Below, in pieces: positions 2,265-37,301 of a stretch of DNA of 37,863 nt. The position numbers were made by a program, and so were the translations under genes. Positions within the stretch are counted from its first letter, which is position 1; every line of letters begins with the position of its first letter. Source of the stretch: Thoreauomyces humboldtii (Eukaryota; Chytridiomycota; Chytridiomycetes; Spizellomycetales; Powellomycetaceae); the NCBI GenBank assembly GCA_027596035.1, contig JADGJA010000136.1, positions 1 through 37,863 of the forward strand. Direction: 5' to 3'. The notes beneath the pieces are model-generated. The model ran no database searches. It worked only from the letters and a program-made list of their open reading frames with translations, and was not told the origin of the DNA.

Positions 2265-3423
2265 TCATACACCGGAGAAGTTTGTGAATGGCGATGAAGT
2301 GGTGGTGGGCCCCTCCGGAGTCACGTACGCAGCCGTGAGACCACCATCCACGAGGAAGTCGGTTCCCGTGATGAAGGACGCCTCGTCAGACGCAAGGAAC
2401 AGTGCGGCGTTGGCCTGTTCCACCGCCTCGCCTACAAAAAAGTAAGGACCATTTTCCTCAGAACCCCACGGACGGAAAATCACGACAGGGCGGATATGCT
2501 GCGCTTACCGAACCGGCCCATGGGAACGTGGACGAGCCGTCGCTGCTTCTTTGCCTCCTCGTTGAGAAAGTTCATGAGGAGGGGGGTTCGGATGGGACCT
2601 GGGCAAAGGGCGTTGAAGCGAATGTTCTCCCGGGCGTGAATGACGGCCAGTTCCCGAGTCATGGCCAGAACGGCTCCCTTGGACGTAGTATCTGAAGTTT
2701 GCCGCATGTCAGCATACGACGGTCGACGTGGTTATCGAAACGCGCCGACGCGTCGCAAAACCCACAGGCAAGTTGAGGCGTAGCTGCACCCCTCAAAGCG
2801 ACAAAGCTCGCAGTGTTGATAATGCTCCCGCCGCCCGCTCGTCTCAAGGCAGGGATCGCGTGCTTGCATCCGAACCACACTCCCTTCACGTTGATCTGCA
2901 TGGTGAGATCCCAGACCTTCTCCTCCGTCGTGACGGCATTGTCATCGTCAGGGTGCATGATGCCAGCGTTGTTGAACACGATGTGAAGCTTGCCTAAGAA
3001 AAACGATCTTTCGTCGGTCAAGCTCATGATCAAGCCCGACGTAAGACGCGTAGTGTTACTTACCAAACGTCTTTTCGGCGATGGCAACGGCCTCCTCCAG
3101 ATCCTTCTCCTTGCTCACGTCCACGCGAACAAAGATGGCATGATCGGCACCCAGCGCAGAGTTGATCTTTGCTACAGCGGCCGTACCAGCCGCCTCGTTG
3201 ATGTCAGCGCATACGACTTTAGCGCCTTCCTTTGCAAACAGGTACGAAGCTTCAAGACCGATGCCACTGTTAGGAGGGACCCGCGAACGTTAGAGAAGGG
3301 GGTTTGAGCGGCAAGGCGAAGGTTTGACTTTTTCGACGCCAACGGCGGAATGGGCGGGGTTTCCAGTACTCACCTTCCGGCACCGGTGATGAGAGCGACC
3401 TTGTTGGCGAGACGACCGGGCAT
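2265..3423 (-). CDS. Short-chain dehydrogenase/reductase (classical SDR), NAD(P)-dependent
   Basis: Five exons (3374-3423, 3064-3266, 2766-2993, 2509-2691, 2265-2431; introns 107, 70, 74 and 77 nt) join in frame to 276 residues, the normal size of a single-domain classical SDR. The N-terminal Rossmann motif Thr-Gly-Ala-Gly-Ser-Gly-Ile-Gly is at residues 13-20, and Asn-Asn-Ala-Gly at 92-95. The catalytic Ser147, Tyr161 and Lys165 are in place, followed by the Pro-Gly-Pro-Ile turn (191-194) and the C-terminal Asp-Gly-Gly. The acidic residue after strand 2 (Cys-Ala-Asp-Ile-Asn) favours NAD over NADP, as is known for this fold. The family is large and the substrate cannot be read from the sequence. 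The enzyme has no targeting peptide and should be cytosolic. The first intron splits the Gly-rich loop, so no single open frame shows the whole active site. The start at 3423 is the only ATG giving the complete Rossmann strand. Confidence 0.92.
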
Positions 3424-3921: not shown

Positions 3922-5426
3922 TCAAGCTTTGGTGTGGGTTTCCTGACCTTCCAACCACCGCTCGCAGTCAAGCGCCGCCATGCATCCGCTTCCAGCAGCT
4001 GCGATCAAGCAGACATAAACAGTCAGCAGATGGAAGAAGAGAAGACGAAAAGCGATGCAGAACTCTATATCTCACCAGTGATGGCCTGTCGGTAAGTCTT
4101 GTCCTGAACATCACCAGCAGCAAAGACACCCTCGATGTTCGTCCTCGTAGAGGGGACACCGTTGTGCGCGTAGACCTTGAGGTAACCAACCTCGTCGGTG
4201 TCCAGCTGTCCCTTGAAGACAGTGGTGTTTGGCGTGTGACCGATGGCGTAGAAGAGACCGTTGACGTCGAGGGTGGACTGCTCCTTTGTGACGGTGTCCT
4301 CGATCACGAGCTGCTTAAGGAGACGGTCGCCCTTTGCCTCCACAGGGACCTTGTTCCAGAGAACCTCGACCTTCGGGTGCGCGAGCAAGCGGTCCGCCAT
4401 GACCTTGGATGCCCGGAGCTTGTTGGTACGGACGAGGACGTACACCTTGGATGCGTACTTGGTGAGGAAGGTCGCTTCTTCGGATGCAGAGTCACCGCCA
4501 CCGACAACAACGAGTGCTGGATACAGGCAACAAAACGATAAGTGTGGGCATTGGTAAGAGACCATTACGCATGCTGGAAACTTACGTTTGTTGCGGAAGA
4601 TGGGAACAGCTCCATCGCACACAGCACAGGCGGAGATGCCCGCCTGCCAGAAAGTGTCCTCTCCGGCAATAAACAGCTGAAAGGCGGGACCGGTGTCAGA
4701 ACGCAGGAATCAGTTCTGGGAGGGGAGTAGTGAAAGACTCACTCGCTTGGCGGTCGCTCCAGTTGCGATGACCACAGAGTCGGCAAGAATCACATCCTGC
4801 TCCTCCTCGCTGCCCTCACGCCACATGCGGAATGGCCGGGAAGAAAGGTCGACTTTCGAGATGGTTTCCGTGATAACGGTGGTGCCAAACTTCACGGACT
4901 GAGCGCGCATGCTGTCCATGAGTTCGGGACCGGAAAGGCCACCTGGGAATCCGGGGAAGTTCTCGATCTCGGTAGTGGTGGTAAGCTGGCCGCCAGCAGC
5001 CACGCCGGCCGCCATGAAGCCTTCGTACATCACAGGCTCAAGGTTTGCCCGAGCGAGGTAGATGGCAGCGGTGTGACCGGCTGGACCAGAGCCGATGACG
5101 ACGACCTTGTGGTGTGGTGGGGCAGGGGTAGCGATGGGAGCCATTGTTGCGAGGGAGCGGAAGGCGTGCTGTGGTGGTGAGAGGAAAGGGGATCTGCAAC
5201 TGGTGCTAACGCGGAAGCTGGGTTTGTGGGTGGTGAAGGTGGGGCTGCGACGAAGCTGAGCTACTTTTGAGGAAAGTGCAAGCTCCGGTCCTGCTGCCGA
5301 GGAAAAGCGGAGGGCGGAGAGAGATTTCCCGCCGATGCAGCCGATGCTGCTGCTGCTGATGAAGGTTCCCGACGACCACGAGGCGAAGCCAAGCACTCCC
5401 TTTGCAGTGCTGCGGGCGACGAGCAT
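3922..5426 (-). CDS. Thioredoxin reductase (low-Mr, FAD/NADPH), with mitochondrial-type presequence
   Basis: Four exons (4743-5426, 4586-4676, 4076-4516, 3922-3998; introns 66, 69 and 77 nt) give 430 residues. The FAD-binding Gly-Ser-Gly-Pro-Ala-Gly is at 112-117, the redox pair Cys-Ala-Val-Cys at 245-248 and the NADPH-binding Gly-Gly-Gly-Asp-Ser-Ala at 264-269. The FAD Gly-Asp motif (Phe-Ala-Ala-Gly-Asp) is near 370 and a C-terminal Ala-Ala-Gly-Ser-Gly-Cys-Met closes the fold. It reduces thioredoxin with NADPH. The core from Met95 (codon 5142-5144) is 336 residues, the usual fungal length. The 94 residues before it are rich in Ser, Arg, Ala and Leu with no acidic runs, like a mitochondrial presequence. 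Met95 sits in a strong start context (ACAATGG), so two isoforms from two starts are likely. The redox cysteines lie in a tiny 91-nt exon. Confidence 0.95.
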
Positions 5427-6191
5427 ACTGTTGCCGCTTCACCGTGTGAAAAGTGCTCTGTAAGGGAAGACGAGGCTTTTATTTCGAAAATCCGAGGAAC
5501 CAACGTTGCTTTCCTATCCACGCCCGAGAAGCGTGAGGGAGCCACCACCTTCCGGATTTGGGATTACTACAAAGCGGGCGGAGGTCAGATAGTCAGGGTT
5601 AGGGCAAGGCAAGTGGCTTAGGGTTCAATTAGACCTTCGGCCTGAGTAAACGGCCGAAAACCCAACCACTCTCGCCATGCCGAGGTACAAAGACAAAGGG
5701 AAGTCCCTCACTGATAGTGCTGGTAAAACTTGTCAGGACATTCCTGCCTTGCGGCCTTACGAAGCGTGTACACTGCACTTTGAGCGTACGGTAAAAGCTG
5801 TCGAGACGTTGACCGTTGACCGTTGACCGATGACCGATGGCCCTGGGCTCGCCACATTGTGGCCGTTGCGTGACACGTCCATCCAGCGATGGTCCCTGCT
5901 CTGACGGTGGAGATTTGGTGACAACCGTGTGGCGGAAATGTTTGAGCTTTGTACGGTACGCAAGAAGGACGGAAGGAACAAGCTGCCGCTCCGCAACCCG
6001 TCCGCAACTTCAGCCGCAGCTGCCGAAAACGCTCTTTCTAAAACTTCCAAAGATCGGCCCGTAGCTCCCGTAGCTAGCCAGGTAGCTAGGCCCGTAGGCC
6101 CCCTACATCCCTACATGCAAGCACCCTCAGAACGTGGTGGATTGAGTATGTGACATAATTGTCACGGGAGTGCATTCGTTTCTGGCACGAA
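5427..6191. other. Intergenic between cation ATPase 3' end and thioredoxin reductase start
   Basis: 765 bases, upstream of thioredoxin reductase and downstream of the ATPase (both minus strand). It holds a 7-bp tandem repeat at 5807-5839 and a cluster of GTAGCT/CCGTAG words around 6060-6110. No coding sequence or tRNA seen. Confidence 0.45.
5807..5839. repeat. Short tandem repeat, unit CGTTGAC / CGATGAC
   Basis: Three exact copies of CGTTGAC followed by CGATGAC and a partial CGATG, head to tail. It lies about 380 bases upstream of the thioredoxin reductase start. Either a small minisatellite or a cluster of binding sites. Confidence 0.75.
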
Positions 6192-10042
<3,851 letters not shown>

Positions 10043-15420: not shown

Positions 15421-18400
15421 ATGCCAAGAGCTCGGAGCAGGAACGAACCGCTCACTCTGTGGTCCGCCGTGTTTCTGTCCAACTGGCTCTTTCTATGGAT
15501 CTTTCCAATCCTACGCGCGGCACAAAGGCTTCCCATTAAGAAGCTCTCCTTTCGTCTGAGAGAGACCGAATCGGCTCGCTACAATGCCGACAGGCTCGAG
15601 GCCGCGTGGAAGGAAGAATGCAAGAAGCCATCCAGGTGGGTGGAGCTTGTGGGGAATTGTCATCTGGGGCGGAGCGATACTCACCGCTTCCGGATCCATT
15701 GTACAGCGAACGTTCCATTTTGAAAGCACTTCGCCGCGTATATGGGTGGACATATGCGTTGATCGGCATCTACAAAATCGTCTGGGGTATCTTCACGTGG
15801 CTCTCCGCTTACTGGCTCCGTGAGTAAACAATGTCGGGAAGAATGAGATTTCCGTCTTCCGTCAACCCAAACCATTTCATTGCATAGTAAAGCAGATCAT
15901 CCTCTGGGTGACCAACAACAACGCTGGAGTCGCTAATCCCGATAAACACGGTCACTACTACGCTATTGGCATGCTCCTATCGGCTCTTCTCAGCTCCATT
16001 GCGATCCATCAGCTCTATTCTGAGTGCAATCGAGTTGGAATACAGGTCCGTGCTGCATGCACGTCCCTGGTCTTCCGCAAATCCTTGCGTTTGTCGGTGG
16101 TTCGCGGAGGAGCGGGCGAGGTCATCAACATCTATTCGACCGACATTACGCGTGTGGTTGACGCGGTTACCAACTTCCACTTCTTGTGGTCGGCCTTCCT
16201 CGAAGTCACCGCCATCATCATCATTGCTTTCGTAGAAGTCGGAAAGTCCGCTCTGCCTTGTCTTGGCTTTGTCCTGCTCCTTCTTCCCATCCAGATTTTC
16301 TTGGGAAAGAAGATTAGTACCCTAAACCGAGAGCAGACGGCCGTCACAACGGGCCGCGTGCACATCATGTCTGAGATTCTCACCGCGATCAAGCTCATCA
16401 AATTCTATGCGTGGGAAAGCGTAAGCTGGTCATTTCATGGCCTTTTGTCCGATGCTTTCCTGCTAAACCGGTTTCCATCCAGCCATTTGACAGCAAAATT
16501 AAGGACATTCGAAGACGGGAGATGGGTTTCATTCGTACCGGAATGATCGTGAAGGCCATCAACTTTACTGTGGTATTCTCCGTCCCTGTCTTTGTTGCGC
16601 TGACCTCCCTTGCCATGTACACTGGCATTGGCAACAAGCTGACGGCGTCCGTCTCCTTCACAATCCTTTCTGTCTACAACACGCTACGATACCCGTTCCT
16701 CATGCTGGTTAGTACACATTGTCGGAAAACTCCTTGATTGCCCGTCACTCACGGATTGCTTAGCCCCTCGCCGTGAGATCAACCGCTGGAGCCATGACCG
16801 CCCTGACTCGTCTCAACGAGTTCTTGGATCTCGCCGAGGTCGAATATCTTCACCCCGAGACACCACCTCCTGGATCCGATCTGTCGCTCTCAGTCCGCAA
16901 CTGCGATTTCAAATGGGACGGTGTCGACGCTGGCAAGCCCACCCTGCAGAATGTCTCGCTTAACATCAAGCGAGGCAGTAAAGTCGCGATTGTTGGAGAT
17001 GTTGGCTCTGGAAAGAGTTCTTTGATCGCTGCACTCCTCGGTCAGATTCGTCTTGTCAGTGGAGACGGGATCAAGGTGTACGGTACCACGGCATACATGT
17101 CACAGGAAGCCTGGCTGCTCAACATCACTTTGCGCGATAATATTCTCTTCGGGAAAGGTAGTGTGCATCCGATGCTTTTCCCTTCAGGCTGGCTCTGATT
17201 GCTGTGCCGAGTAGAATTCGAACGTGCGCGTTACAACGATGTAGTTCGCGTTGCTGCTCTGCAACGTGACTTAACACTTCTGATTGCTGGAGACAAGACT
17301 GAAATCGCAGAGCGAGGGGCAAACTTGTCTGGAGGTACGCACGATAAAACTTGTACCTAGGATGTCTTCGGACCATTAACTCTGGGCCGTTTCAGGACAA
17401 AAGAGCCGAGTTTCTCTGGCCAGGACAATCTTTGCTGACGCGGACATCTTGCTGCTCGATGACCCTTTGGCTGCCGTTGATCAACACGTCGGCGTGCACA
17501 TCTTCGAGGAATGCTTCATGAAGTATCTCAAGGACAAAACTGTCATTGTTTCGATGAACCAACTGCAGTATCTGCCACGGATGGACCACATCATCATCAG
17601 TAAGATCAGGCCTTAAGATCGTTATCCATAGGATTACATTAACTCCTTTTGCAGTGAAGGAGGGCCAAATTGCGATGCAGGGAACGTTCGATTATCTGCT
17701 TGTCAACCACCCGGAGTTCACCGAATTCTGCAAGCAGATTGTTGCACCAACTTCAACCGACGGCGTGGATGATGAGTCTTTCGTTCCTCTGAATCAGTCC
17801 ACGTTCGATGTCGCTGCTGAAGAAAAGGAAAAACCTTACGATCTCGAAGACGAGGACGTATCGGATACCCCTGACATCCAAGGATCTCACGCGGTACTGC
17901 TGCAGGAATCCGGTCAACGGCTCAGCGCAAAGGACATGATTGAGCTCAACCAGCTGTCCGTCATGTCACGTAATCAAATGTCCGTCAAGTTTAAAGATAT
18001 CAACGAGCACACCATTCGAGCCGAAATTGAGAAGGATGCCGGAACCACGATTCGCTCTATGGGTTCTCGCCACGATTTTGCTGCCGCGGTCCGAAGGAAC
18101 GAGTCATCCGTATATAGTACGGCGGACATCGAGGGCCTTGAGGACGTCATGAACGAGCGGAAGGGCCAGCTGGTGCAAGAGGATAACTCGGCGGCCGCCA
18201 CCGGCTTCCGTGACTTTGCGACCTATGGACGTGCGGCATCGAAGTTCGGCGCAGGGACTGTCATCACGCTTTGCATCATGGTCTTCTTCTTCCTAGTCCA
18301 CGGCGTCCGCATTGGGTCTGATTACTGGTTGCGATTATGGGTGCCGCGCATCGGTGGCTATTCGGACTCCGTATACCTTGGGGTTTACGCCGCTTTCACA

Positions 18401-20420
18401 ATCGTTTTCGCTACGGGCGTGTTGACACGTGGGCTGCTGTTCGCATACCTTTCCACGAAGAAGGCAACCGAGCTTCATGACAACATCTTCAGCGCTATCA
18501 TCCGCGCGCCTATGTCGTTTTTTGGTCAGTGCAGGATGTGCGTCACTGTCCGTGAACACCATGCTAACTGAGCCTCCTATTTCCAGATTCGACGCCGCTA
18601 GGCCGAATTCTCTCTGCATTTTCCAAGCACCAGCTTCACGTTGACGATACGCTTCCTGATGCCGCCATGCAGGGTCTGCAATATGCACCCCTCGGACTTG
18701 GCGCATTGATTCTCTGCGCCGTCCTAGTCCCCTGGAACTGGGCGCCGGCCATCGGCCTTGTGATCATCGGCATTATTATCCTCCGATTCTCGACACCAGC
18801 CGAAACAAAGACGAAATCGCTCGAAGCCATCACCAAGCCTCCCATCTTCAACCACCTCGCCGCGACACTTGAAGGACTGTTCTCGATCCGCGCGTATCAC
18901 GCCGAAAAGCGATTCGACGACATGAACCTCGTCAAGCTCGACGTGAACCACGCGTCCATGCTCGCGGCCATGTCGGTCCGATCTTTCCAGGCTCTCTACC
19001 TCGACGTTCTCTCGTCATTCGTCATCTACTTCACTGCACTTCTGATCGTCCTCGCAGTGCCGAGGACGGACCTGCCTTCGATTGCTGGTCTTGCACTGTC
19101 GAACGCGCTCCAGATGCTCGTGTTCGTCCAGTGGACGGTCCGCATGTGGGGAGAGGTGCAGAGTCAGATGTCGTCCGTGGGTCAGCTTGATTATTACTCG
19201 CATGTAAAATCCGAAGCTCCTGCCATCATCGCTGACAGGCCCGTACCGAAGCTGTGGCCCGACCAGGGTGACATTAGAGTAAGTCTTCCGCGTTACTGCC
19301 GGGGGTAAATCTGACTATTAGATTGACACGGAGCAATCTACAGTTCACGGACGTTGTGCTTCGCTACAAGGAAGGAGGCGTGGACGTTCTCAAGAACATC
19401 AACCTACACATTAAAAGCACCGAAAAGATCGGCATCGTCGGTCGAACTGGATCAGGGAAAAGTATAGGATCTCGTGTTAACCAACAATTTTTGATAAGCA
19501 CTACTAACCGAACCATTTTCAGGTACACTTTTGACGGCACTGCTCAGAATCGTGGAAATCGCTCAGGGAAGCATCGTGATTGACGGTGTGGATCTCAGCA
19601 CCATCGGTTTGAACGATTTGCGCTCCAATATTGCCATGTAAGTTTTTGTCTAGCGCGAATTCCGATATGGTTGCGCTGACCAGTTTCCCTGTGCATCCAC
19701 TTAGCATTCCACAAGAACCGGTGCTCTTCGTGGGAACCATCCGTTCGAATCTCGACCCTTTCCAGAAGTCATCGGACGATGAGATCTGGCGAGCTCTCGA
19801 TTCGGTGCAACTTGGCGACAAGATCCGTGAAATGCCAGGCAAGCTTGACAGCGAGGTCGTAGAGAACGGCAAGAACTTTTCCCTTGGGCTGCGACAGTGT
19901 GTTTGCATTGCCCGAGCGATATTATCCAAGAGCAAAGTGAGAAAAATGAAGCGGGTGTAAGTGGCCGGTTACCGTAATCTGACATTGTTGCTTGCAGATC
20001 TTGGTTCTGGATGAGGCAACGGCAGCCATCGACTCTCGGACGGACGCCATGTTGCAGGAAACCATCAAGACGAGCTTTGCCAACCTGACGGTCCTGACCA
20101 TCGCGCACCGACTAAACACGATCATCGAGGTGCGTCTGCACCCGTTCTTCTCCGAGGGCTCATGTTCGGCATGGCCTTTAACCTTACATCTTCTTTCTTT
20201 CTTCCCTCAGGCGGACCGCGTTTTGGTCCTCGACGCCGGGCAGGTCCTCGAGTTCGATGAACCAAAGATCCTTCTCGACAGGGAAGGGGGAGATTTCAGG
20301 TCGCTCCTCGAACAAACGGGACCGGAAGAGTACCGCATGCTGTACGCGCAGGCTCAGAAGGCATACGAGGAGAGGCAGGCAAAGCGAGGGGGAGGTGCTG
20401 GCATTTATGTCGTCGAGTGA
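15421..20420 (+). CDS. ABCC-type (MRP-like) full ABC transporter
   Basis: Fourteen exons (15421-15635, 15707-15819, 15888-16420, 16483-16707, 16764-17157, 17215-17334, 17396-17599, 17655-18524, 18587-19278, 19344-19461, 19523-19637, 19705-19936, 19998-20129, 20211-20420) join in frame to 1390 residues. The layout is TMD1-NBD1-linker-TMD2-NBD2, without an extra TMD0. NBD1: Walker A 440-447, signature Leu-Ser-Gly-Gly-Gln 531-535, Walker B Leu-Leu-Leu-Asp-Asp 552-556. NBD2: Walker A 1155-1162, degenerate signature 1258-1262, Walker B with Glu1283, switch His1314. The NBD spacing and Leu-Arg-Asp-Asn-Ile-Leu-Phe-Gly after the Q-loop are those of ABCC exporters, which move organic anions, glutathione conjugates or drugs across the plasma or vacuolar membrane. 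The substrate is not readable. Site 1 is degenerate: Asp556 replaces the catalytic Glu and Asn588 replaces the switch His. The NBD2 Walker A is split by an intron after Gly-Lys. Confidence 0.95.
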
Positions 20421-22068: not shown

Positions 22069-25000
22069 ATGGGCGCTAATCTTCGACACGCTCAGGTCGC
22101 CTTGCAGATCCACGGCCGCGCAAGTGACTGCATCCTCGAACGAGAGGACGAGAACCATATCTGCATAGCTGGGCTAAAGGACCGAAAGAAAGTCTATCTG
22201 GACGGCTGCTTCGACGCGTCGGCCACTGCCGACGACCTCTCCACCCGTTGCAACCTCGATGCCCTGGCTTTCGAAGCTGTGAATGGATTGAGCACCGCGC
22301 TCTTTGTCGCAGGAGCGGGAAGAAAGTTTCTTCATAATCGCACCGACATCTTCATCAACCTTCTTACCTCCCTCAACGCCCACCTGGCAGCGGACCCGAC
22401 GCTGGCTGTGAAGTTCGCTCACGTGGCTGTCGCTGATTCCAAATGCGTGGATCTGATGCGAGATCAGCACGTCGATGTCGCAGCACATGGAGGGACATGG
22501 GCTGAAGAGGTATATCAACCGCTCGTGACGTGCGAGGACCTCGCGGCCCGACTGAAGAAAGGCTACTCGATGCCCTACCTGATGTCGGTACGAATCGAAT
22601 CTCGGACGGGTGGAAGGAGGACGCAGGGACATCTGATGATGGGAGACTTGGGACTTCCCTGCTTTGACGCGTCCGTTCCGGAAGCCAAGCTGCGCGCCAG
22701 AGGCGCGGGATTGTCCATGTCCGTCCGCGCGGGGATGAGGATCTTCTCCATGTTGACCACGTCGGGAGTGGAAGGGCCTCTCCCGCACGACGCTAGCATC
22801 CTCACCACCATCTGTCGGGAGTTCTTTGGTGGGTCCGGACGACCCGTGTTCGTCCTTCATCTTGACTCAGCCGGGGAGGACGTCGGAGGCGCTTCCGACG
22901 CGGAGATCACGGGCTTAGTTCAGATGGCTGAGACGATCCGCAAACTTCGTGTGATCGCCGTACCGAACGAGATGGACCCTGTGATCGGCGAGCTCGAGCG
23001 GTCGAACGAGGAGCTTGGTTCCAAATTGGACGGACTCGTCAACGAAATCGAAGTAGTTCGAACGACTGGAGATGCGACGAGCAAGGAGTTGGAGGCGCGA
23101 CACGAAAAGCAAATTGCGGAAATCCGAGATGAACATGCCGAAGAGCTCGAAACACAACGTCAGGCCTATAGGGTGAAGACCGCCGCGTTACGTGAGCAGA
23201 GGGGAAATCTGGAGACTGAACTGACAGCTCTCCGGGATCAGAGTCAGGCGGAGATCAGAACGGTAGGCGAACACCCCGTGATTGCGTCTTGGATCTTTAC
23301 CCTGACTTCGACTTTTATTCAGTTGAAAGAGAGCCACGAGCTTGAATTAACTGAGGTTAGTATTCATGGTGGTATGACGAAGAATGCACGCACCACTCTC
23401 CTGACATCTTGAAATTCTCCTGGTCAGATGAAGGAAGCTCAGGCTGCGAAAGGCGTTGTAGACCGATTGGAAACTGCAACGCTCAGATTTGAAAATGCAG
23501 CTCTTGACGAGACTGCTCGGAAACTCCGCGTCGAAGCACGTAAGTTTCCGGAACATGAACGCACAATGATCAAGTCTATCGGAAACCAACGATTCTCTTG
23601 ATCTCAGTACATCTGACGCAGGAACGTCAGCAATTGCGGCTAGAAGTCGAACGCTTAGAGCGATCGCTGAGCCTCGCTAATGTAGGAGACTGGGAAAGCT
23701 AATATAGCTCTTTTGCGGAGAAAATAACTCATTTCTTTCTGCTTTGAAAGGATCGGCGTGAACGCCTAGTCGAAATGCAGACCCAAACAGCTCGCGAAAG
23801 TGCAGCTCTCGAGCGAGAGTCGGCCGAAATCAGATCGACCCTTGAAAGAAAGGTCGCGGACACCGAACGCGCTGCGCATGTGGCTGCAGAAGCCGCTGAG
23901 ACTGTTCTGGCCTCCACCCGCTCGGACCTCGCTACGGCAGAGTCTGCACTGGCATCCTCAGAAGTTACGGTGCAAAACCATACCGCTTCGATTGCAGAGC
24001 TGGAAACTATCGTGGCTGAACTCGGCGCCGCCGGGACAGAAAAAGATCAAATCCTTGCGCTACTCGAAACCCAACTCGAAGAATCTAGCGTCGCGCTTCA
24101 ATCCATGCAGTCCTCCCGCAACGAAGCCACTTCGACCCTCCACTCGCTACGTTTGGAGCTGACAGCCAGCGTTGCGGCCCTGACGAACGCCGAATCTGGA
24201 ATTGTTGCGCTGACGTCCGAGCTGGCCGAATGCAGACGGTCTCACGCGGACGAGGTAGCGGAGCTCCGGACCCATCTGGATGCGACACGGGAGGCTGCGC
24301 AGACGAGGGCCAGGGAATCCGAGAGGAGCGAGGGAAGGTTTGAAGGCGAACGTGACGGTTGGGTTCGAGAGAAGAGCGGATGGGACCGGGAAAGAGACCG
24401 TCTGGAGAAGGAGATTGCAGAACTCAGAATCGAGGTTGCGAGGGCAAAGGTCGAAGGGGCAGGAGAGGAGGACAAAATCAAGGTATGTTCTATCTGTTCC
24501 TCACTTGCGGTTTCCAATTTGCTCGACTCTCTTTAACCTCCGTGTTTTCTCTTTTCTTCGTTTTAAGACGTGGTTCGAACGAATAGAATCCGAGAACCGA
24601 GCGCTTCGAGCCGAGGTTGCTGAAGTCAAGACGCTCCGTCGTCAACGTCGCGACTCGGACTTTGAGACCGTCCGCGTCCACTCCCGGGCCGAGCGACTCG
24701 AGGCCCAAAACAAGAAACTAGAGGAGGAGAACCAGAGAAAACAGGTGGAATGGGCCAGGGAGCGCGACACTCTCGTCAGACAGGCGATGGAGGCTGCGGC
24801 GGTAGCGGCAGCGGCAGCGACCAAGGTCAAGCCAACGAAGCGGGCTGGCAAAAAGGTGTTGGAAGTGGTGGAAGATGATGAAGAGGACGAAGAAGAGGAA
24901 GAGGAGAGAGACCTCGCTAAAGCCGCTGAACCGCCGACTGCCCCTGCTTCCGCTCCTTCTCAGAACCGTGGAAAGAAACAGGCGGCTAAGGAAGCGTTTC

Positions 25001-26509
25001 CGGAAGAAAGCGAACCTGCGATCGTTGAACCTCGTATTGAAACCAACAAAACCAAACGTGCCCCTGGTTCCGAACCTGAACCAGCTCTTCCGAAACCGAA
25101 ATCAAAAGCCAAAAAGACGGTGGTGCCACCAGTAGTTGATGAGGAAGCCGAACCCAACACGGCCTCATCAAAACCGTCTCCACAGAAACGCAAGCGCAAG
25201 CCCAAAGCCGCTGCTCCGCTGATACCGCCACCGAACCCTGTCTCGGAGGATGAGGAACAGGAGAATGTAATTTCCGAAGACATCGAGGACACAGCAGATA
25301 TCGAACCAGTTGCAGCGCCGTCGAAAAAATCTCGAACTGGGAGAAGCAAACCTCCGAAGCCTGCTCTAAAGGTTATGGAAGCCGATAACGAAGGGCTTTC
25401 TGACGTGTACGCTGAAGAGAACGCGGGACGAAAGCCGCGTCGGAAAACCAACAAAGAATGGTGGAAGCTGGGCGGTGAACCCGAAGCTGTCGATGACGAA
25501 GAGATCGCGAAAGGTGACAATGCTGCGGCACCAGCGGTGCCTGCAAAGAAGCGTGCAAAGAAGAAGGGGCAGGTCGCAGAGGAAGGCAGTAATGAAGTCG
25601 AGCCCGTCATCGAGGACCCCGTCGATGATGCGCAGCCCGCGGATAAAGTGCCTCAGCAACCCGTCCGAAAGTCCCGGAAGGGACCCGCGAAAGACGATGA
25701 TATCGAGGGAGCTGATGATGAGGACGCCGCGGCATTACAGCCTGCCAAGCCCTTTTCCCGAAAAAGAAAGAAGGCGGCTGCTCCCGCAGATGTTGATACT
25801 GTGGAAACTGGATTTTCTGTGGATACTGCCCAAAACGAGGAAAGTCTGATTGCAAAAAGCGCACCAGCACCGAAGAAGACGACGGCTAAACAACGCAAAA
25901 ATAACGCGGTTGTCACCGAGGCGACGACAACAGACGACGTGCCAGCTACGGACAGTCCTTCTCTCGCGCCATCCTCCAATAATGTCGGCAGGGCCGAGGC
26001 CATCGCAGCTGCGGCAGCTGAAGCCGCCGCGGTCGAAGCCGAGGAGGAACAGAAGAGGGTTACTAACGCAAAGAAGCGGAAGCTCAATCCAGGACGAAAG
26101 GTCTCGATGGATCCAAACGATGTCGAGAACCAGGTACGGCGAAAGGCATGTTGCAGCAAGATGAAGGTCAATTTCTAAACTTACCAATCGTGTCTTGTAG
26201 CCACGTGCACGTCCTGCAGCAGTAGCAAGCAAAGTTCCCCAGGAAACGAAATCTCTATCCGCTATTACCACCACCACAACATTACCATCATCATCAGCAT
26301 CGTCTAGCTTTTCATCGGCGCCCACGGTCCTCTCGCTATCCCAACGAGCAGCAGCGTTCTCCTCGGACCAGGAGACCCGGACGTCAAGCGGCACAACGAA
26401 ACCGTCTTTACCCAATGTTAATGCCAAGAAGCGCATGGTGTTCGGAAAGCGAACGGTCACGAGGGATCCCGAACAACTTGCCGAGATATTGAAGGGATAT
26501 GGGTTGTAG
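22069..26509 (+). CDS. Kinesin-like protein with degenerate, probably ATP-incompetent N-terminal motor domain
   Basis: Seven exons (22069-23262, 23323-23355, 23428-23539, 23608-23681, 23751-24482, 24568-26133, 26201-26509) give 1339 residues. Residues 1-300 follow the kinesin motor in order and spacing: Tyr-Leu-Asp-Gly-Cys-Phe (43-48) for the Phe-Asp-x-Val-Phe strand; Asn-Gly-Leu-Ser-Thr-Ala-Leu-Phe (72-79) leading to the P-loop position (80-88); Gly-His-Leu-Met-Met-Gly-Asp-Leu-Gly (187-195) for the switch II strand; and Pro-Leu-Pro-His-Asp-Ala-Ser-Ile-Leu-Thr (237-246) then Phe-Gly-Gly (253-255), as in the Pro-Tyr-Arg-Asp-Ser-Lys-Leu-Thr..Leu-Gly-Gly segment. P-loop, switch I and the switch II Gly-Ser-Glu are absent. 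Residues about 305-790 are coiled coil; then an acidic run (Asp/Glu, around 815) and a long Lys/Pro/Ala-rich disordered tail with basic nuclear-signal-like clusters, ending in a compact motif with Val-Phe-Gly-Lys-Arg. It probably dimerises and may bind microtubules or a partner without moving. Confidence 0.75.
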
Positions 26510-27213: not shown

Positions 27214-30200
27214 ATGTCTGACCCCACCCAGCACACCCTCGAGCTGAATGGTCTCATCGACGCCTTTGCCCGAGAAACCCACCGACTCGTCGGAGCATAC
27301 CAGAAAATCAGCGAACCGTCTGAGGCGGACGCCGTGGGTGCTTTCGCTAACCAGTGGAGAGCCATCGAACGAATCGCTACCTCTCTGCACAAATCCCTCG
27401 GAAACAGGGATGCGATTATCGGTCCACACGTTTCGAGGGCAGCTAGCATGGTGGCTGGAGTGCTGCAGGGCAAAAGAGGAACGAGCGTCGACAGAGAGTT
27501 CACCACTTGCGTTATCGCCCTGTTGACAGCCGTCAAAGAGGTTGTCAAAGTGCATGTCGAACACCCAGTAGCCGACAAAACGGCATCTTCTACGCCCGCA
27601 GCCGCTGTTAAAGACAAACAAAGTGAAGATAGACAACGTCAGCCAAGTCTGGCTCCCTCTCGACCTGAGGAATTCGATCAACAGCTTCCCAAAGAAAGCG
27701 AGGAAGCACAGCAACTAGTGACGCAAGATGCAGCACTCGCCCCACCGATGCGAGCACCGCCTCGTTCCAGTTCACAGCGTCAAGCTTTGGATGCTATTGC
27801 CTCAAGTCTGGATGCGCCGACCATCGCGATAGACTCTGGAGCGGCACCACCTCCTCCAATACCCCCTCTTTTCACGAAGCCTGCGAGGGCTAGGTCGCAG
27901 CAACCTGGAACAAAGTCTCAATCTGCGTCGATGGAACAGCTGGACAGTACTCAACGAGGCAGTCAGCCTACTCTTGCGGAAGCGAACAAGAAGGCCGGGT
28001 CGAAGGAGTCCTTCATCTCTTCGCATGAGCAATTGCAGGTCGGCAGCATTGACGAGACTGCTGAGCGATTTGTTCAAGATGGGCACAAGTCGACTCGGAA
28101 TTCCAGGCAGCCCGAATCGCTGTCATCGGATAATGACTCTCAGACTGCGTTGTCAAATCTTGAGCCTGCGACTCCAACTGGTGTTGAGAAGCATTCAAGC
28201 ACATTTGTTCCATCCTCTCCTCCTGTAGTTGATGAGACCAGGAACTTCGCGAATGAATCAGCACCTTCTGCAATCAGTAGCGAGCAGGAAGAAGCTGAAT
28301 TGGATCGAACCGCAAATGCTCTTGAAACCGAAGCGCAGGAGGGCGAAGCATCTGTCGACAAGCGAGGCGACGAATCTGCGCTGGATTCGCTTAGCAAGAA
28401 GGCCTCTGCGGTGGAAGCAGTTGAAGATTCGACGGACACGCCACCGGCTGCACCACAAATGTCGGCAGAAGTAGCCGTCGAACTAGTAGCGCGGGGGGAG
28501 CAAGTTCCCTCTCGTCGAGGATCTCGCAATGAAGCTTCTGAGAACTCTTTCGAATCGGACTCCGCGTCTAAGACGGCGGAAGTCGGCCCCGGCTTGCCAG
28601 ACGCAATTCCGTTGAACGTCTCGGCGGATCGACAATCATCCGTATCTGAACTAGGCAATCTAAAGCTTGCGGAAACTCAGGTCCTCCCGCGCAAGGCAAG
28701 CTCACAGTCTCTCGAGGCTGCTGAGACTTCGACAATCACTGTCACTGAGCTGCTGTCAGCCACGCCCGTAGAAACTTCGGCTCCCATTGTTCAAGTCGTC
28801 ACAGTCCCAGCTAGGATTCTTGAGGGTCGATCAATCGATCATCGCAATAGCGGCCTGGAGATTGGTACGAGTGCAGCCAGCCTTAAGCGTCCCGTTGTTC
28901 CCGTTGCCGAGAACTCTACGCGCGCAAAGGCCGAACTTTTCAAGGCTAAGGCGGCGATTCAATTGGCGCCGACACCTGCTCCGAGACAAAAGCTATCTGA
29001 CCTGGCGCCTGGACGGTCAGCACCGTTTGCGGGTGCCACCACTTCGCAGACCTCGCCACGCCAGAAACTATCCGATCAGCCTCCCGGGCGTGTGACCATT
29101 GCACTCAAAGGAACATCCGTCCCACTTAAGGATGCGGACGGTCCTTCCGCTCCTGTGGATCGTCTTGCGGCACTGAAAGCGCGGAAGCAAGCAAACCGAA
29201 GTTCGTTGATGCACGTTCCATCCGTCCGACAGGCCGCTGCCTTCTTCGAAAACGCAGCGACCAAGGTAGCGGAGTCGGCTAACTCGCTCAAGCGAAGACC
29301 GCCCTCCGGCGCTCAACAAAGGGTGAACAGTCGCTCGGGAAGCGGATCTTATCTGGCAGGGACATCCGAATCCAATGACGACTTGGGAGGAAATCTGACC
29401 GACACCGACACCCTCGCTAGCGTCGGCAGCTCCTTCGACAACCTCAAGGATTACGCGGGGGACAACAACGAGGACGATGTCAATTCCCATCAGTCGGAGG
29501 ATCATTCGGCCGCTCACTCGCAGCACGCAGACTCCGAAGACGACTACGAGATCGACTCGCCCGTTCCCGTCACAACCCACTCCTACAGCAGCGCGCGACA
29601 GGGCTCTCAGAGCTCACCGAACCAGGACTCGCCCAGCACAGTCACGGGTGAAGAAGAGGACGCCATCGGTGGGAATGGAGTAGTCAAACAGTTGGGCAGA
29701 AAACTATCTCAGCCGTCTTTGAAGCAAGTTTCGGAAACCGTTGTTTCGCCTCACGTCCATACGCCGAACACGGCCGTGGAACACGACGACCTCAACGACG
29801 AGTCTCACCCTTTGGCGCCTGTTGAGAGTCTAAAGAATGTTCTGCACCTGGCAAAAAATGTCATCGTGGATCTACTGCATCCTCGGGAAGAGCCTGCGCA
29901 ATATGCTTCCGAGAACCCGACACCCATCGTCGTGATGCGCATGGAGCATGGCACGGCGCAAACCGAGCAGGTTGTTCAGGTCACCGAGTCGACAAAGGTT
30001 ATTGAGACGGCTCGTTCGGAAGAAGCACCAGCGCAGGTCGAGTTGGTTCCTGCAAAGCCGCACGATATGCAAAAGTTCAGTTCTCGACCAACGTCCAGAG
30101 TTCCGGAACTCGTGCAGCGACCCGTCGAGGAGGAGCTTAGGCAGACAGATCGACCAAGGTCGAGGATTCCGGAACCCGTGCAGCCGCTCGTTGAGGAAGA

Positions 30201-33200
30201 ACTCGGGCAAACAGGTCGACCGAAGTCGAGGATTTCGAACTCTCAGACTGTAGATTCCGAGACCTCGCTGCGGGAAAGGCAAGGCGACAGTCGGCCGCAA
30301 TCTACACTTCCTACAGCGCGACCCCGAAAAGTGGAAGATCCTACCGGCTTGAAAGCGGCAGTCGAATTGACTGATGCTTCGAAAGAGCGTTCGTTCTCAC
30401 GACCATCGTCTAAGGTGCCGGAGCTCGCTTATGCGCAAACAGCGTTAGATGATGAACCATCAACGTCAATGGACAACAATTCAGCTGATGAAGATGACTT
30501 CTCGCCGGTCTCATGTGCATTGAACGAGTTGATCAATGCTGGAGAGCACGATGCCGAAGACGCTCTGGATGTCCAACCAGCTGCTGAGATCCAACCTTTT
30601 CAGAGAGCAAACGAGCGTACGGGGTCCTTCGAGCCCGAAAAAGATCGAGATATCTCGTTGCGACAAGGGAAATCTGTGGAGTCCACTGAGCCGGTTCTTT
30701 CTGTTGCTTCGGAAAATGTCGTTGAATTGGAGAACAAGCCCCAAGCAGACGCTGGACCTAATAATGCTGACGGTGCCTCGGGACGACAGAGCAACTCCAG
30801 TCGTCCATTGTCCACCAAGCCACCACAGCAAAGCGCTCGCACTTCGGTGGTGATCCCGGTCATCGACATTGTTCCTCAAACACCGGAGATAGAACCATAT
30901 TCCGGCGCGACAGACGTTATTTTATCATCTCTACAGGAAGCAGAGCTTGTTCCGGCGGTGGAAGAATCTTCGGGTCTCCGTCCCAGCGTCTCCACGGCTG
31001 CGATCGATCAGCTCATCCGACGTCTTTCATGTCTGCCTATTGCCGAAGTTGCTCCTATCGGGACGGTCACAGAAGATTACGGAAAGTCAACTTCGGTGTC
31101 CGAGCCCGAGGTGCGGCCCAGGTATCCACGATTGGCGGGCTTGGTCAAGCAGGACACATTCGGCACTAGCAACACCACCTTGCCCGACACAACACCCGAT
31201 GATGGAGTGACATCTAACACAGAAACTCAGCAGCTTCAGGAGCAGTCGAAAGAACTCGCCGCTCCTCACGTGGACTCGTCGGTCGAATCGCACACCCCGG
31301 ATCAGCAAATGTCCGACTCAGACTCTGTCGAACCGGCACGGGTGAGAAAACCATCCCTTGCCGAGGCCATAAGTGCTGCTCCAGCATCGACAAGACCTAC
31401 GCAACCCTACAGGGCTGTGCGCATCGGACTTACCCCGTTGAACGGCCAGTTCACGGCATTTAGCATGTATCTTCACAACAACCTGCGACTCGGTCGCGGG
31501 GTGGCTAGGGACGGGTTCAAGGCTTTTGCGTCCCAGGTTGTCTCGCGAAACCATTGCGACTTCATGGCAAAGGAGGAGCGGGTGTACATCAAGGATTGTG
31601 GAAGCAACAGCGGAACGTTCGTGAATGGCATGAGGCTCAGCAGTCTGGGCACGGAGAGCGAGCTCAAGGAATTGCATGATGGAGACCTCGTTCAGCTCGG
31701 AAAGGACTACGAGGGTGCCGCAGGTGGTAACGTGCCCGAAGGTGAATAGCTATTGAGCCTGACCTTAGTATGTCGACGGTAAGTTTAACTGTGGTTTCTA
31801 TGAAAGCTCGTAGAAAGTGCGTGAAGATATCCATCAAGCTGGAGCTGGTACCAGATCTGAGGATTCTCGCAAAGCCCTTAAAGTAAGTGTAAATTTCCGG
31901 ACTGCCATTTGCGAAGTTTTCTCACGATTATCGTGCTTCAGTGCTGTTGCCAGTGCACCTCCGGTCGTTTCACCAAAGTCCGCGCGGCCACTGTGCGTGT
32001 CGAGCTCAGACCTTCTTGTTTAATTGAGAAGAGACTAATACCTTTTCTATGTTCAGAAGCACTAAAGTCGTTGCAGCAGAGCAGCACAAGCCAACTGCAG
32101 AAGTAAAGACTGACAACCAGAGGTGAGAGTGTACTGACTGCCGTGCATACAGATCATTGCTCAATAGTTTTCCTTTTAGTGCAAGCGGCTCCGTTGATTC
32201 AGTCACGAAACCGGGGGGATCTTCGAGGTATGTACTCTGATCGGTCAATAAAAACCTTGTTGTTTGCCTTTATACTTATTACTGTATAAAGTGCGCTTGA
32301 CTTGACGGGTCAGCGCGACGTAACGCTGCTCAGGAGTCAGTCCGGAACTCAGTCCATGTGAGTTTTAGATCCAACCTTTTGAGTTACTCTGTCGTCAAAC
32401 TAATGCAGAAGGCGTTGACAGCTCTGGACGACAAGGAGAAGATGATACGGGCCCCCTTCGGACCGCCACCATTCAGAGGGCGGGCTCTTCCGGAACTGTT
32501 GAAGGAATTGCAGCGTCGGATGCGAAATCGATCCCCTTCAGTCGAAAAAGCTCGAATGCTATTGCCGATCCCATCTTCAAGACGGCACCCGGGAGCTCGT
32601 TATCATCTCCGTCGAGTGGCGGGGATAACGCCGGCGGTCTGACTGCTCTCCCAACTGCAGGTTTCAAACCGAGTGACGGCTCCGGAAGTCGCGACTTGCA
32701 GGTCCCGCTCGGCTCGACAGGCAACATTTCGGCCAATGCCTCTGGTTCCAACATCGCGGCCACCAGTACTGACAACCTGTCGAGTTCGAACCTCAACGCC
32801 AGCAGCACTGGTAACCTCCTCGCCACAAATCTGTCGGCCTCAAATCTTACCGCGAGTACAGCGAATCTCTTGCGCCAGCCGTCAGCGCCGCGAAGCAAGT
32901 ACACACTCACGATCTTTGGGACAAAAGACAAGATACGGAAGATTCAGATAGCAGGCGCAGATGGCACCGAAGGCTTGACTGTAGGGCTCAAGTTCTGGGA
33001 CACCAAACGGTAAGACTTTCTTAGCTAGATCGCTCGGAAATCTTATCATGATACTAACGCCATGGTGATGTGCGCTTGAAGGGTCGTGATGATTCAAGAC
33101 CAACGGGCAGGGTACGCTTCACAGAACCCGGCATTTGAGATCTTTCCTGACCCGCGGGCCCCGACTGATTCGCCGCTATCCGTTCACACTCCTTACGTGA

Positions 33201-33667: not shown

Positions 33668-34278
33668 GTCTTGACCATGCGAAAATACAACTCTGTAATA
33701 TGACTGGTTTTAACTTTTTGAGACGGAGGTCTGTCGAAAAAAAATGGTTCGGAGAAGAAAAGGAAGAAGGTTGGAGAGGGCCTCCTGGCTGTGCACTTCA
33801 TCCGATCAGCCGACGTTGGGGAAAGGAAGGGCAAGTTTGTGCACAAAGTGTGCAAAATCACAAAGTCGCACCAGTTGTGGGGGCTCGTGTGCGTCGAAGC
33901 CTTTGCTGTTGCTCAAGGCCTCCATCATGATGGCGGTGTGGTCTGTGGAGGGCTGGAGGACGGCGTGGAGGGCCCGTTCTGAGCAGGGATTTGGGCATTC
34001 TTGGCGGTAGACCCGTCTTACGTCGCGTCACGGGAGCCAACCAAAACCATGCCTTTCGCTTCCTCAAGCGCGCAGCAGCGGGTAGCACGTTTGGAGGGCG
34101 CTCGAGTGACCAGTCGTTCGGTGGTTCAAAAGGTCCTGGATCTCCTCGGCCCCTCTTCCTCCCCGCCCAAAGCTAAATAATCCGCTAGAAACTCCCGCTT
34201 TTTGGACCATCGTCGCTTGTTCAGCATACAGTATCCCTCATAGCTTCTTTTTTTGCAACCCCTTCGATACTCTTTACA
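33668..34278. other. Intergenic between FHA gene and FAS1 gene
   Basis: 611 bases, 3' end of the FHA gene and promoter of the FAS1 gene. Short GC-rich open frames on both strands look like chance. The last 30 bases before the FAS1 start are T/C-rich, fitting a fungal leader. Confidence 0.4.
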
Positions 34279-35282
34279 ATGCGTTTCGCTTTTGCTGCTC
34301 TGGTCTCTTTCGCCGCTGGCGTCGTCTGCGCCCAGGAATTGTCCCTTCCCACCAACACCATCTGGCAAAATGTCGTTGCCTACGACCAGACCGCCGACAA
34401 CGGAAACAACACTTACCACATCAGCACCGTCAACTCGTACGCGTCCGACATTCAAGAAATTCTTTCGGGCCCCGGACCCTTCACTTTCTTTGCGCCTTCG
34501 GACCATTCGTTCGGTCGCCTTGCGGACACCAACGCATCCTTCCTTGCCTCTTGGAAGAAGGATGCCGCTTTGATCAAGGCCACTTTGGAATGTGAGTTGC
34601 GTGGCCAACAAAACTGTTTGCCTCTGACGTGTCCCAAAGTGACTGCTCCGCCACTGCCCGCTGGAAAGTGCGGCCGCTGTCCATAAATCCCACAGCTTAC
34701 TGACAGAATTCTCAACGTACTATAATAGACCACATCATCACCGGAGTGTACGACATCCACGCTGCCGCTCCTTCCCCACACACTCTGTTGCCCTCCATCC
34801 TCACTCCCTCGGTCATCGATGCCACCATCGTCCCCAGCACGGCCGCCAACCCCGTCGGCTGGGTCGTCTGCATCTTGAAGGGCGAACTTCCCGTCTCGGC
34901 GAGCATCGTCCACACGATGCCCTCCTCCAACGGCATCCTCTACGTCATCGACACCATGCTCACCCCTCCCGCCGAAGCCCTCGCCGCCGCCGCCAACGGT
35001 ACCATCAACACCATCGTCCCCGTCGTCGCCTCCTCGACCGTCGCCGTCGCCGTCTCCACCTCCGTGTCCGTGGCCACCGCCACCGCATCCCCCACGGCCG
35101 TCGCTCAGCAGACTTCCGGAACCGCTGCTGCCGCTTCGAGAACCGCTTCCTCCGCCCCTACCCAGTCCGTCGCTGCCCAGGGATCCACCGCCGTCAACAG
35201 CGGTGCTTCCTCCGTCGTCGCAACCCGCTCGATCCTCGGCGCCGCCGTCGCTTGCGTCGCTTTCTTTGCTTTCGCTCTGTAG
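34279..35282 (+). CDS. Secreted FAS1 (fasciclin) domain protein with GPI-anchor signal
   Basis: Two exons (34279-34591, 34729-35282; intron 137 nt, GTGAGT..TAG) give 288 residues. Residues 1-18 form a signal peptide ending Val-Cys-Ala. A single FAS1 domain (about 30-185) shows the H1-type signature Phe-Thr-Phe-Phe-Ala-Pro-Ser-Asp-His-Ser-Phe (72-82) and, across the splice junction, Leu-Ile-Lys-Ala-Thr-Leu-Glu-Tyr-His-Ile (98-107), the conserved Tyr-His box of FAS1. A Ser/Thr/Ala-rich region follows, and a terminal hydrophobic stretch with Ala-Phe-Phe-Ala-Phe-Ala-Leu indicates GPI attachment. FAS1 proteins mediate cell-cell or cell-matrix adhesion, and in fungi are often cell-wall proteins linked to development or virulence. 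The domain is weakly conserved in its second half. Family assignment is good; partner and role are not known. Confidence 0.85.
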
Positions 35283-35767: not shown

Positions 35768-37301
35768 CTATCTGCAAGTCTCGGATCCTCTCGTGTAAGG
35801 GTGATATCTAGCTGGCCGAAGGTGGCCGTCGGAATCGATGCTGTAGCCGCACGGTAGGGTCATGTCCATCCCGCTGTCGCGTCGAGAGCTGGTGTACGAC
35901 GAGGACGCCTCGCTGCTGACGCTGCTTCGTCGATGATCGAGGTCGACGCTGTCCCGCTTCGTGTATCCCCGGTCGTGGTGGCCTGGTGTCATGTAGGGTA
36001 GTCGACGCTTCGGAAGGTCCAGGACTGGAAGAGGAGAGGATGGGTCAGTTGCTTTGCTTTTTTTTTTTTTTCGTTCGATCGGCGCGTGTTTCGCGGCGGG
36101 AAACCAGGAGTTGGGATGCTTACCGATCTTGGCGACCTTTCGGTTGTTCGCACATGCGGGTTCGCAGAACCATCGTTCGCCATCTGGAAGGGAGGGTTGT
36201 TAGATCACGGTGGTACCTGAAACCTGCGAGATCTTTTGAGGAAGGAGCGCTCACCAAAGTTCTGTGCGCGGTCGTAGCACTCAGGATGGTAAGCGCGCGG
36301 ACAACCGTCGCACTGCACCAAAAGTGAACTATGCGCACTGTCCCGCTGGAAGCAGGTTATGCAAAAGTCCTGGAGGATCGGTCGACATCGCTCCTCCACC
36401 GTCTCCTTGTGGAAGGAGCTGAGGTCCAGTCGACTTTGCTTGTCAGCGTAGCCGTAGCCTTTGTAGTCACATCCGTGTTTGCTGGAGCAAAACATCGGGT
36501 CAGATGAATGGATCGCGGGATTGAGAAGGTAAATGAAAGGTCCACATACTTGCAAAGGGTCCGCTTGCCCCAGGGTCCAGGACGGAAGCTCGCATTGGTC
36601 TGACCGCCTTTGGTGACTCCGCAGTATCGACACCAGTCGAGACCCTTCTTTGTGAACTCCTCGTAGATGGTCGGTCCCAAAGATCGCCTCACGACGCATG
36701 GTCGAATGATCTGTTCCGCGTACTCCTCGATAGGCTCGAGCTCCTCGTCCGAATCCGTCAGGGTATCGCTCTGCAGGTCACTGTCGCTCGCACCGTCAGG
36801 GTCGCGGAAGGAATGACGTGGGGTATATGAGCAGCTCTTGGGTGGTGATGATGATGGCGAAGGCGGCGTGGAAGTAATGTCCAAACCAACGTCCATGTCG
36901 CTAAAGTTGAAACGAACAAAATAGCGTGAGAAAATCGCAATCGGACTGGTTGTGACTGGGTGGAATCGAGAGGTCACTCACTCATCGAACGAGAACGCAG
37001 TTCCGCATAGGAGGTTTCCTTCCCACGCATCTTGAAGCTGGAGCTGAAGCGGGTTGAGCTCAAAGGAAGCTGTCCGCTTCACAAAGTCTGGTCCGTCAAG
37101 GTGCTCGACGTTCCCAGCGTCCGCTCCAGGTAGGATACGTTGCGATTGCTTCAGATCCGACGAGATTGGTTGGACAATGCCTGCGAGGAGTGCGTCACTG
37201 TAGAAGTGAGTGAACTCGTGCACGAAGGCATCTGCGTTCGTGGGATGAGTGTCGAAGGAGAACGGAGGGAGGGAAGGGCACGAGAGCGGGACGTCGAGCA
37301 T
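35768..37301 (-). CDS. GATA-like and PHD zinc-finger protein
   Basis: Five exons (36982-37301, 36550-36900, 36255-36481, 36124-36183, 35768-36024; introns 81, 68, 71 and 99 nt) join in frame to 404 residues. After an unstructured first half (1-190, with an acidic Ser/Asp/Glu run around 145-165) comes a GATA-like finger: Trp196-Cys197-x2-Cys200, then Arg-Pro-Gly-Pro-Trp-Gly and Leu-Cys223-Asn-Lys-His-Gly-Cys228. It is followed by a PHD-type finger: Cys264-x2-Cys267, Cys281-x2-Cys284, His289-x2-Cys292, Trp304-x-Cys306-x3-Cys310. The C-terminal tail (311-404) is rich in Ser, Arg and Asp. PHD fingers read histone tails and GATA fingers bind DNA, so a nuclear chromatin or transcription role is likely. 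Target genes are unknown. The start at 37301 has A at -3; an in-frame ATG at 37382 would add 27 Pro/Ser-rich residues. Confidence 0.85.

Follow-up and report, generated by a model that had tools for sequence, protein, structure and literature searches.

The described kinesin relatives most comparable with the gene reported here are Vik1/Cik1, VAB-8/KIF26, Costal-2 (Cos2), which is an insect protein, and Smy1. That a kinesin head can be without a working ATP site is already established in Vik1/Cik1 and VAB-8/KIF26. In Vik1/Cik1 the motor homology domain, placed after the coil, is reported to lack what ATP binding and hydrolysis require (PMC4338441). VAB-8, KIF26A and KIF26B (kinesin-11) are non-motile kinesins reported to have no functional P-loop (PMC12646758), and VAB-8 has been termed very highly divergent (PMC2867816). 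Cos2 was too divergent for the profile cut-off of that study, possibly has no motor activity and is reported to bind microtubules in an ATP-independent manner (PMC2867816). Smy1 of budding yeast is kinesin-related but is described as not binding microtubules and as acting on myosin V (PMC3472504); it lies within the kinesin cut-off of PMC2867816 and is placed with kinesin-1 in PMC5076506, where 'pseudoKinesin-21' is a fungal orphan group. Here we describe a gene on contig JADGJA010000136.1 of the chytrid Thoreauomyces humboldtii (Powellomycetaceae; 20.7-Mb assembly), within an analysed stretch of 37,863 nucleotides (the window). On the account that we favour as the probable one, it goes back to a kinesin gene in an ancestral chytrid, whose product ceased to work as a motor while retaining the fold.

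The gene, its exons and its putative head are laid out as follows.

22069..26509, plus strand: whole gene, seven exons, 1339 amino acids, identical to the public protein
22069-23262, 23323-23355, 23428-23539, 23608-23681, 23751-24482, 24568-26133 and 26201-26509, plus strand: exons, the last with the stop codon
22069..22974, plus strand: residues 1-302, putative degenerate kinesin motor domain (pseudo-head), all within exon 1, assigned from PDB matches, HHalign, a structural model and the core pattern

The six introns are 60-85 bases long and all GT..AG. The joined exons give 1339 codons and a stop, and the product is identical over all 1339 residues to NCBI 'hypothetical protein HKX48_001488', which bears out the coordinates and frame given in a preliminary description of the locus.

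Kinesin descent of the head is argued from the order of its elements, its hydrophobic pattern, PDB matches and predicted structure, and not from residue identity. An independent PDB search returned kinesin matches, and the hydrophobic core pattern of kinesins is kept. HHalign aligned the head collinearly with kinesins over 257 columns, whereas no control reached 200; its score was equalled by 1 of 300 residue shuffles and by none of 200 block shuffles. An AlphaFold2 (AF2) model of the head, built with kinesin rows in the alignment, had high confidence and a kinesin fold, and the predicted structure suggests that the kinesin motor fold very probably extends over the whole domain. An alignment of the full protein with motors was discarded, as it smeared the motors over the coil, and was replaced by a head-only alignment. 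The head had been said to match kinesins in order and spacing. The order stands; the spacing does not, given a deletion at switch I and one residue too few in switch II. The P-loop is three residues short in one of two alignments only.

The first core strand and the positions corresponding to the nucleotide site are as follows.

22096..22119, plus strand: first core strand VALQIHGR, residues 10-17 (model strand 9-15)
22309..22332, plus strand: P-loop position, residues 81-88, AGAGRKFL without the Walker A Lys and Thr
22567..22572, plus strand: switch I deletion site, after KKGYS at residue 167, about 15 residues including NxxSSRSH gone
22645..22659, plus strand: switch II position, DLGLP for DLAGSE, residues 193-197, read from the sequence

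In the first core strand, the kinesin RxRP motif is cut to a single Arg. In an alignment with 78 kinesin motors, 2 of the 8 letters of GQTGSGKT remain in the head (neither Lys nor Thr), 0 of 8 in switch I and, with DL-GLP, 3 of the 6 letters of DLAGSE. The motif strings reported earlier are confirmed: A81-G-A-G-R-K-F-L88, no N-x-x-S-S-R-S-H, and a G before D193-L-G-L-P197. The Walker A pattern [GA]xxxxGK[ST] is absent from the head and present in 116 of 120 kinesins, and the SSR[STC] of switch I, deleted here, occurs in 117 of 120. The four kinesins without Walker A were rejected as pseudokinesins, since they look like fragments or mis-spliced CENP-E models. Where at least 80% of 46 kinesins agree (89 columns), the head retains the residue at 21 and is gapped at 10. 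Loss of the ATP site is thus supported by the motif comparison, although 'every motif lost', as the preliminary description put it, is slightly too strong. In one joint judgement with the rest of the favoured account, we think the head can probably no longer hold or split ATP.

The microtubule-facing side appears to have changed as well.

22777..22818, plus strand: loop 12/helix 5, PLPHDASILTTICR for HIPYRDSKLTRILQ, residues 237-250, with R278, K281 and R284 replaced

Kinesin HIPYRDSKLTR reads PLPHDASILTT in the head, and R278, K281 and R284 (kinesin-1 numbers) become D, I and T. These positions are basic in 77, 66 and 67 of the 78 kinesins, and in computed electrostatic contribution to the contact between kinesin and tubulin they take first, second and fourth place (PMC3226556). 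The net charge of the stretch is 0 in the head and 1 to 3 in the 78 kinesins. The S, L and T of helix 5 are retained; helix 4 INKSL reads LSMSV. From strand 8 to the neck the net charge is -2 against a mean of 2.1, with 1 of 78 kinesins as low, whereas the values from switch II to GGN (0 against 2.5; 13 of 78 as low) and in strand 5/loop 8 (-2 against -2.0) are not unusual. Judged by these residues, the canonical microtubule face looks damaged, which does not establish loss of function. Because R278, K281 and R284 are lost too, the earlier suggestion of a microtubule or spindle scaffold is weakened. We file the head as kinesin-derived and not as an active kinesin, because it falls below PF00225 and lacks the Walker A, switch I, switch II and basic contact residues.

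Two further regions make up the rest of the protein.

22969..24867, plus strand (span including introns): residues about 301-815, putative long coiled coil, from hydrophobic period, few prolines and a model helix
24868..26506, plus strand: residues about 816-1339, low-complexity, probably disordered tail with K/R clusters between acidic runs

Residues 301-815 look like coiled coil. The hydrophobic period is near 3.5 in residues 471-815 and 3.35 in 301-470 (periodicity only; no dedicated coiled-coil predictor was run), there are 2 prolines in 515 residues, and the predicted structure has a helix at 304-332. Six K/R clusters were counted in the protein, five of them in the tail, where the net charge is -14 over residues 816-1229 and +5 over 1230-1339.

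We propose that an ancestral kinesin lost motor function and kept its fold. ATP handling would have gone with the Walker A Lys and Thr, the deletion of switch I and the breaking of switch II, and the microtubule grip of the usual face was probably lost with the basic residues of loop 12/helix 5. To judge from the anatomy of the protein, the long coiled coil would form a parallel homodimer, a rod that carries both dead heads at the same end, and the tail with its basic clusters, at the opposite end, may direct the rod to the nucleus or nucleic acid/chromatin. The paired dead heads could then serve as the ATP-independent binding end of a rod-like scaffold; since they would have no ATP cycle and a damaged track face, they are most simply seen as binding modules. 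An extended version of this account is possible but doubtful: with no ATP site and no canonical microtubule face but its fold under selection, the head would simply bind, as a module of a nuclear rod protein, and would stand for a separate pseudokinesin lineage of Powellomycetaceae or of the genus, more degenerate than Smy1.

A number of results weigh against the account we favour. A Pfam search of the protein gave no kinesin match above the PF00225 cut-off, and PF00225 run over the whole genome at E<=10 gave 56 matches on 17 other contigs and none on the gene's own. With HMMER kinesin profiles the head ranked 24 of 1002, 136 of 2002 and 15 of 2002 in pools made of its own shuffles plus one reversed copy, which is noise level, and HHalign's own probability for the head against kinesins was 15% and 6%. 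At 152 mostly agreed kinesin columns the head has 33 identities, shuffles 31.0 +/- 3.9 and block shuffles 31.6 +/- 3.1; since the head does no better than its shuffles there, identity of residues is uninformative. The alignment behind the good AF2 model consisted of kinesins, which is a bias, and the single-sequence model reached a pLDDT of 38. Fold searches with the latter placed one kinesin, KLP10A, at Foldseek rank 50 and none above it (best 50 of 330 rows), and VIA gave none in its best 50 rows; searches from a model of pLDDT 38 are meaningless and are no evidence against a kinesin fold. In addition, codon usage in exon 7 is not coding-like (-0.087), the tail as a whole (816-1339) has an acidic net charge of -9, and nuclear location, dimerisation and scaffolding are steps that we infer. 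The silence of Pfam and HMMER, the shuffle-level identities and a single-sequence model that matches other folds at noise level would all suit a head that is not a kinesin, but an alpha/beta domain of other origin in which strands and helices by chance follow the same order as in kinesins. We consider this very improbable in view of the independent PDB matches, the collinearity over the full length, the core pattern and the high-confidence model obtained when kinesin relatives are included.

A former kinesin might also be decaying or recently orphaned, drifting under weak or no strong selection with its frame open by luck or weak selection. In a rough tree with 78 kinesins the head's branch was 5.3 substitutions per site (median 0.29), as such drift would predict, and its placement had a support of 0.42; with these two values the head is unplaced and the tree does not give a parent family. 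The orthologue searches, too, suit decay. They returned only the protein itself among 5.8 billion proteins, both with residues 1-340 (E<=1e-3, 6597 candidates) and with residues 190-345 (E<=10, 946 candidates), by a method that relies on five-letter words in common and on comparable length; a fast-evolving or much shorter relative may therefore escape. The database contains a kinesin (P0008) of Geranomyces, a member of the same family as Thoreauomyces, so at least some proteins of a near relative could have been found. A search of its own genome revealed no further copy of the head; weak matches there included C588 (E 0.0018), C675 and C122 (E 0.68). The C588 match was rejected as a second copy: it is a 151-codon frame with low-complexity similarity, lying behind frames that presumably encode a NOC2-type nucleolar protein. 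That no relative was found is a further point against our account, and the 'separate family' of the preliminary description is not shown. Yet the exon 1 frame is open for 398 codons. At the base composition of the window 0.041 stops are expected per codon, about one per 25 codons, and about 300 neutral codons would hold about 12. The core pattern is also retained, and all six introns splice in frame. Codon usage, referred to 11 stretches from the same genome, scores +0.176 per codon in the head frame and -0.111 and -0.138 in the other forward frames; one reverse frame likewise scores well, with +0.142 in the head and +0.223, against +0.168, in the remainder of exon 1, which is a common shadow. 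Because it diverged this far without a stop, the head was probably read as protein for most of that time. Decay seems quite unlikely to us, and the earlier statement that the gene is not a pseudogene is supported by its open frame and codon usage. For the role of the heads the main rival is a non-catalytic partner, which by analogy with Vik1/Cik1 and Kar3 would use its coiled coil to pair with an active N-terminal kinesin, setting that motor's hold on the track. The Vik1/Cik1 motor homology domain, without an ATP site, restrains diffusion and sets Kar3 speed (PMC4338441); here a long coiled coil directly follows the head, and the kinesin matches on 17 contigs offer possible partners. However, Vik1/Cik1 retain a microtubule-binding site, whereas in this head R278, K281 and R284 are D, I and T. 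We regard this role as unlikely.

Elsewhere in the genome, two odd divergent kinesins, L009 (C209) and L010 (C334), are apparently related to each other and have a recognisable P-loop, switch I and switch II; the P-loop of the C209 kinesin is read across an exon-piece joint. In the tail of the present protein, a 20-residue motif (NAKKR...R.V..DP) occurs twice, flanking the last intron.

26065..26124, plus strand: tail motif copy 1, NAKKRKLNPGRKVSMDPNDV, residues 1215-1234
26420..26479, plus strand: tail motif copy 2, NAKKRMVFGKRTVTRDPEQL, residues 1311-1330

The pair scores 40, against 17.4 +/- 3.6 in shuffles, and none of 2000 shuffles reached this value. A search of the genome with the C-terminal copy found only itself, and carries little weight since it also missed the first copy. 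The next gene and the other frames noted in the window are listed below.

27214-31749: next gene, about 1511 residues in a single open frame, mostly low-complexity to the eye; FHA domain close to the end (E 3.9e-12)
36205-36777, minus strand: frame with PHD finger, at the window end
34189-34686, plus strand: frame matching fasciclin weakly (E 7.2e-5), at the window end
17558-18571, plus strand: ABC transporter frame, ordinary gene
7934-10042, minus strand: P-type cation ATPase frame, ordinary gene
4065-5438, minus strand: pyridine-nucleotide disulphide oxidoreductase frame, ordinary gene
2659-3114, minus strand: short-chain dehydrogenase frame, ordinary gene

Pseudo-motors show the uses of the kinesin fold once motion is removed. 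If our account is true, a head that has lost both sites at sequence level but retains its core pattern would clearly exemplify the kinesin fold as an interaction module, in contrast to Vik1/Cik1 and Cos2, which are reported to keep microtubule binding (PMC4338441, PMC2867816), and beside Smy1, which is reported not to bind microtubules (PMC3472504). Kinesin counts based on profiles miss such proteins. One census set aside the 166 most divergent of 1624 sequences (PMC2867816), and the present head lies below PF00225 altogether.

Among the literature matches listed, none described this protein by title or start of abstract, and the comparisons with Cos2, Smy1, VAB-8/KIF26 and pseudoKinesin-21 are by description. 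Vik1/Cik1, yeast kinesin-14 partners, share with it a motor homology domain without an ATP site joined to a coiled coil. They differ in that the domain is C-terminal after the coil (Vik1 351-647) and has a microtubule-binding site, whereas here the head is N-terminal and the loop 12/helix 5 basic residues are gone. The preliminary description had held that, in known relatives, either some of the nucleotide site survives or the domain sits elsewhere; for Vik1/Cik1 the second half is right and the first is not. VAB-8/KIF26 are alike in reportedly having no functional P-loop, but belong to animals and act in migration and axonal transport. Cos2, like this head, falls beyond a kinesin profile cut-off, and differs in its reported ATP-independent microtubule binding. 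Smy1 is likewise fungal and kinesin-related, but passes the kinesin cut-off of PMC2867816, while this head has no Pfam match. PseudoKinesin-21 resembles the protein in name and fungal restriction. Degeneration has gone unusually far here for a pseudo-motor, and what appears to be new is the combination of an N-terminal head, a sequence below every profile and a microtubule face that has changed too.
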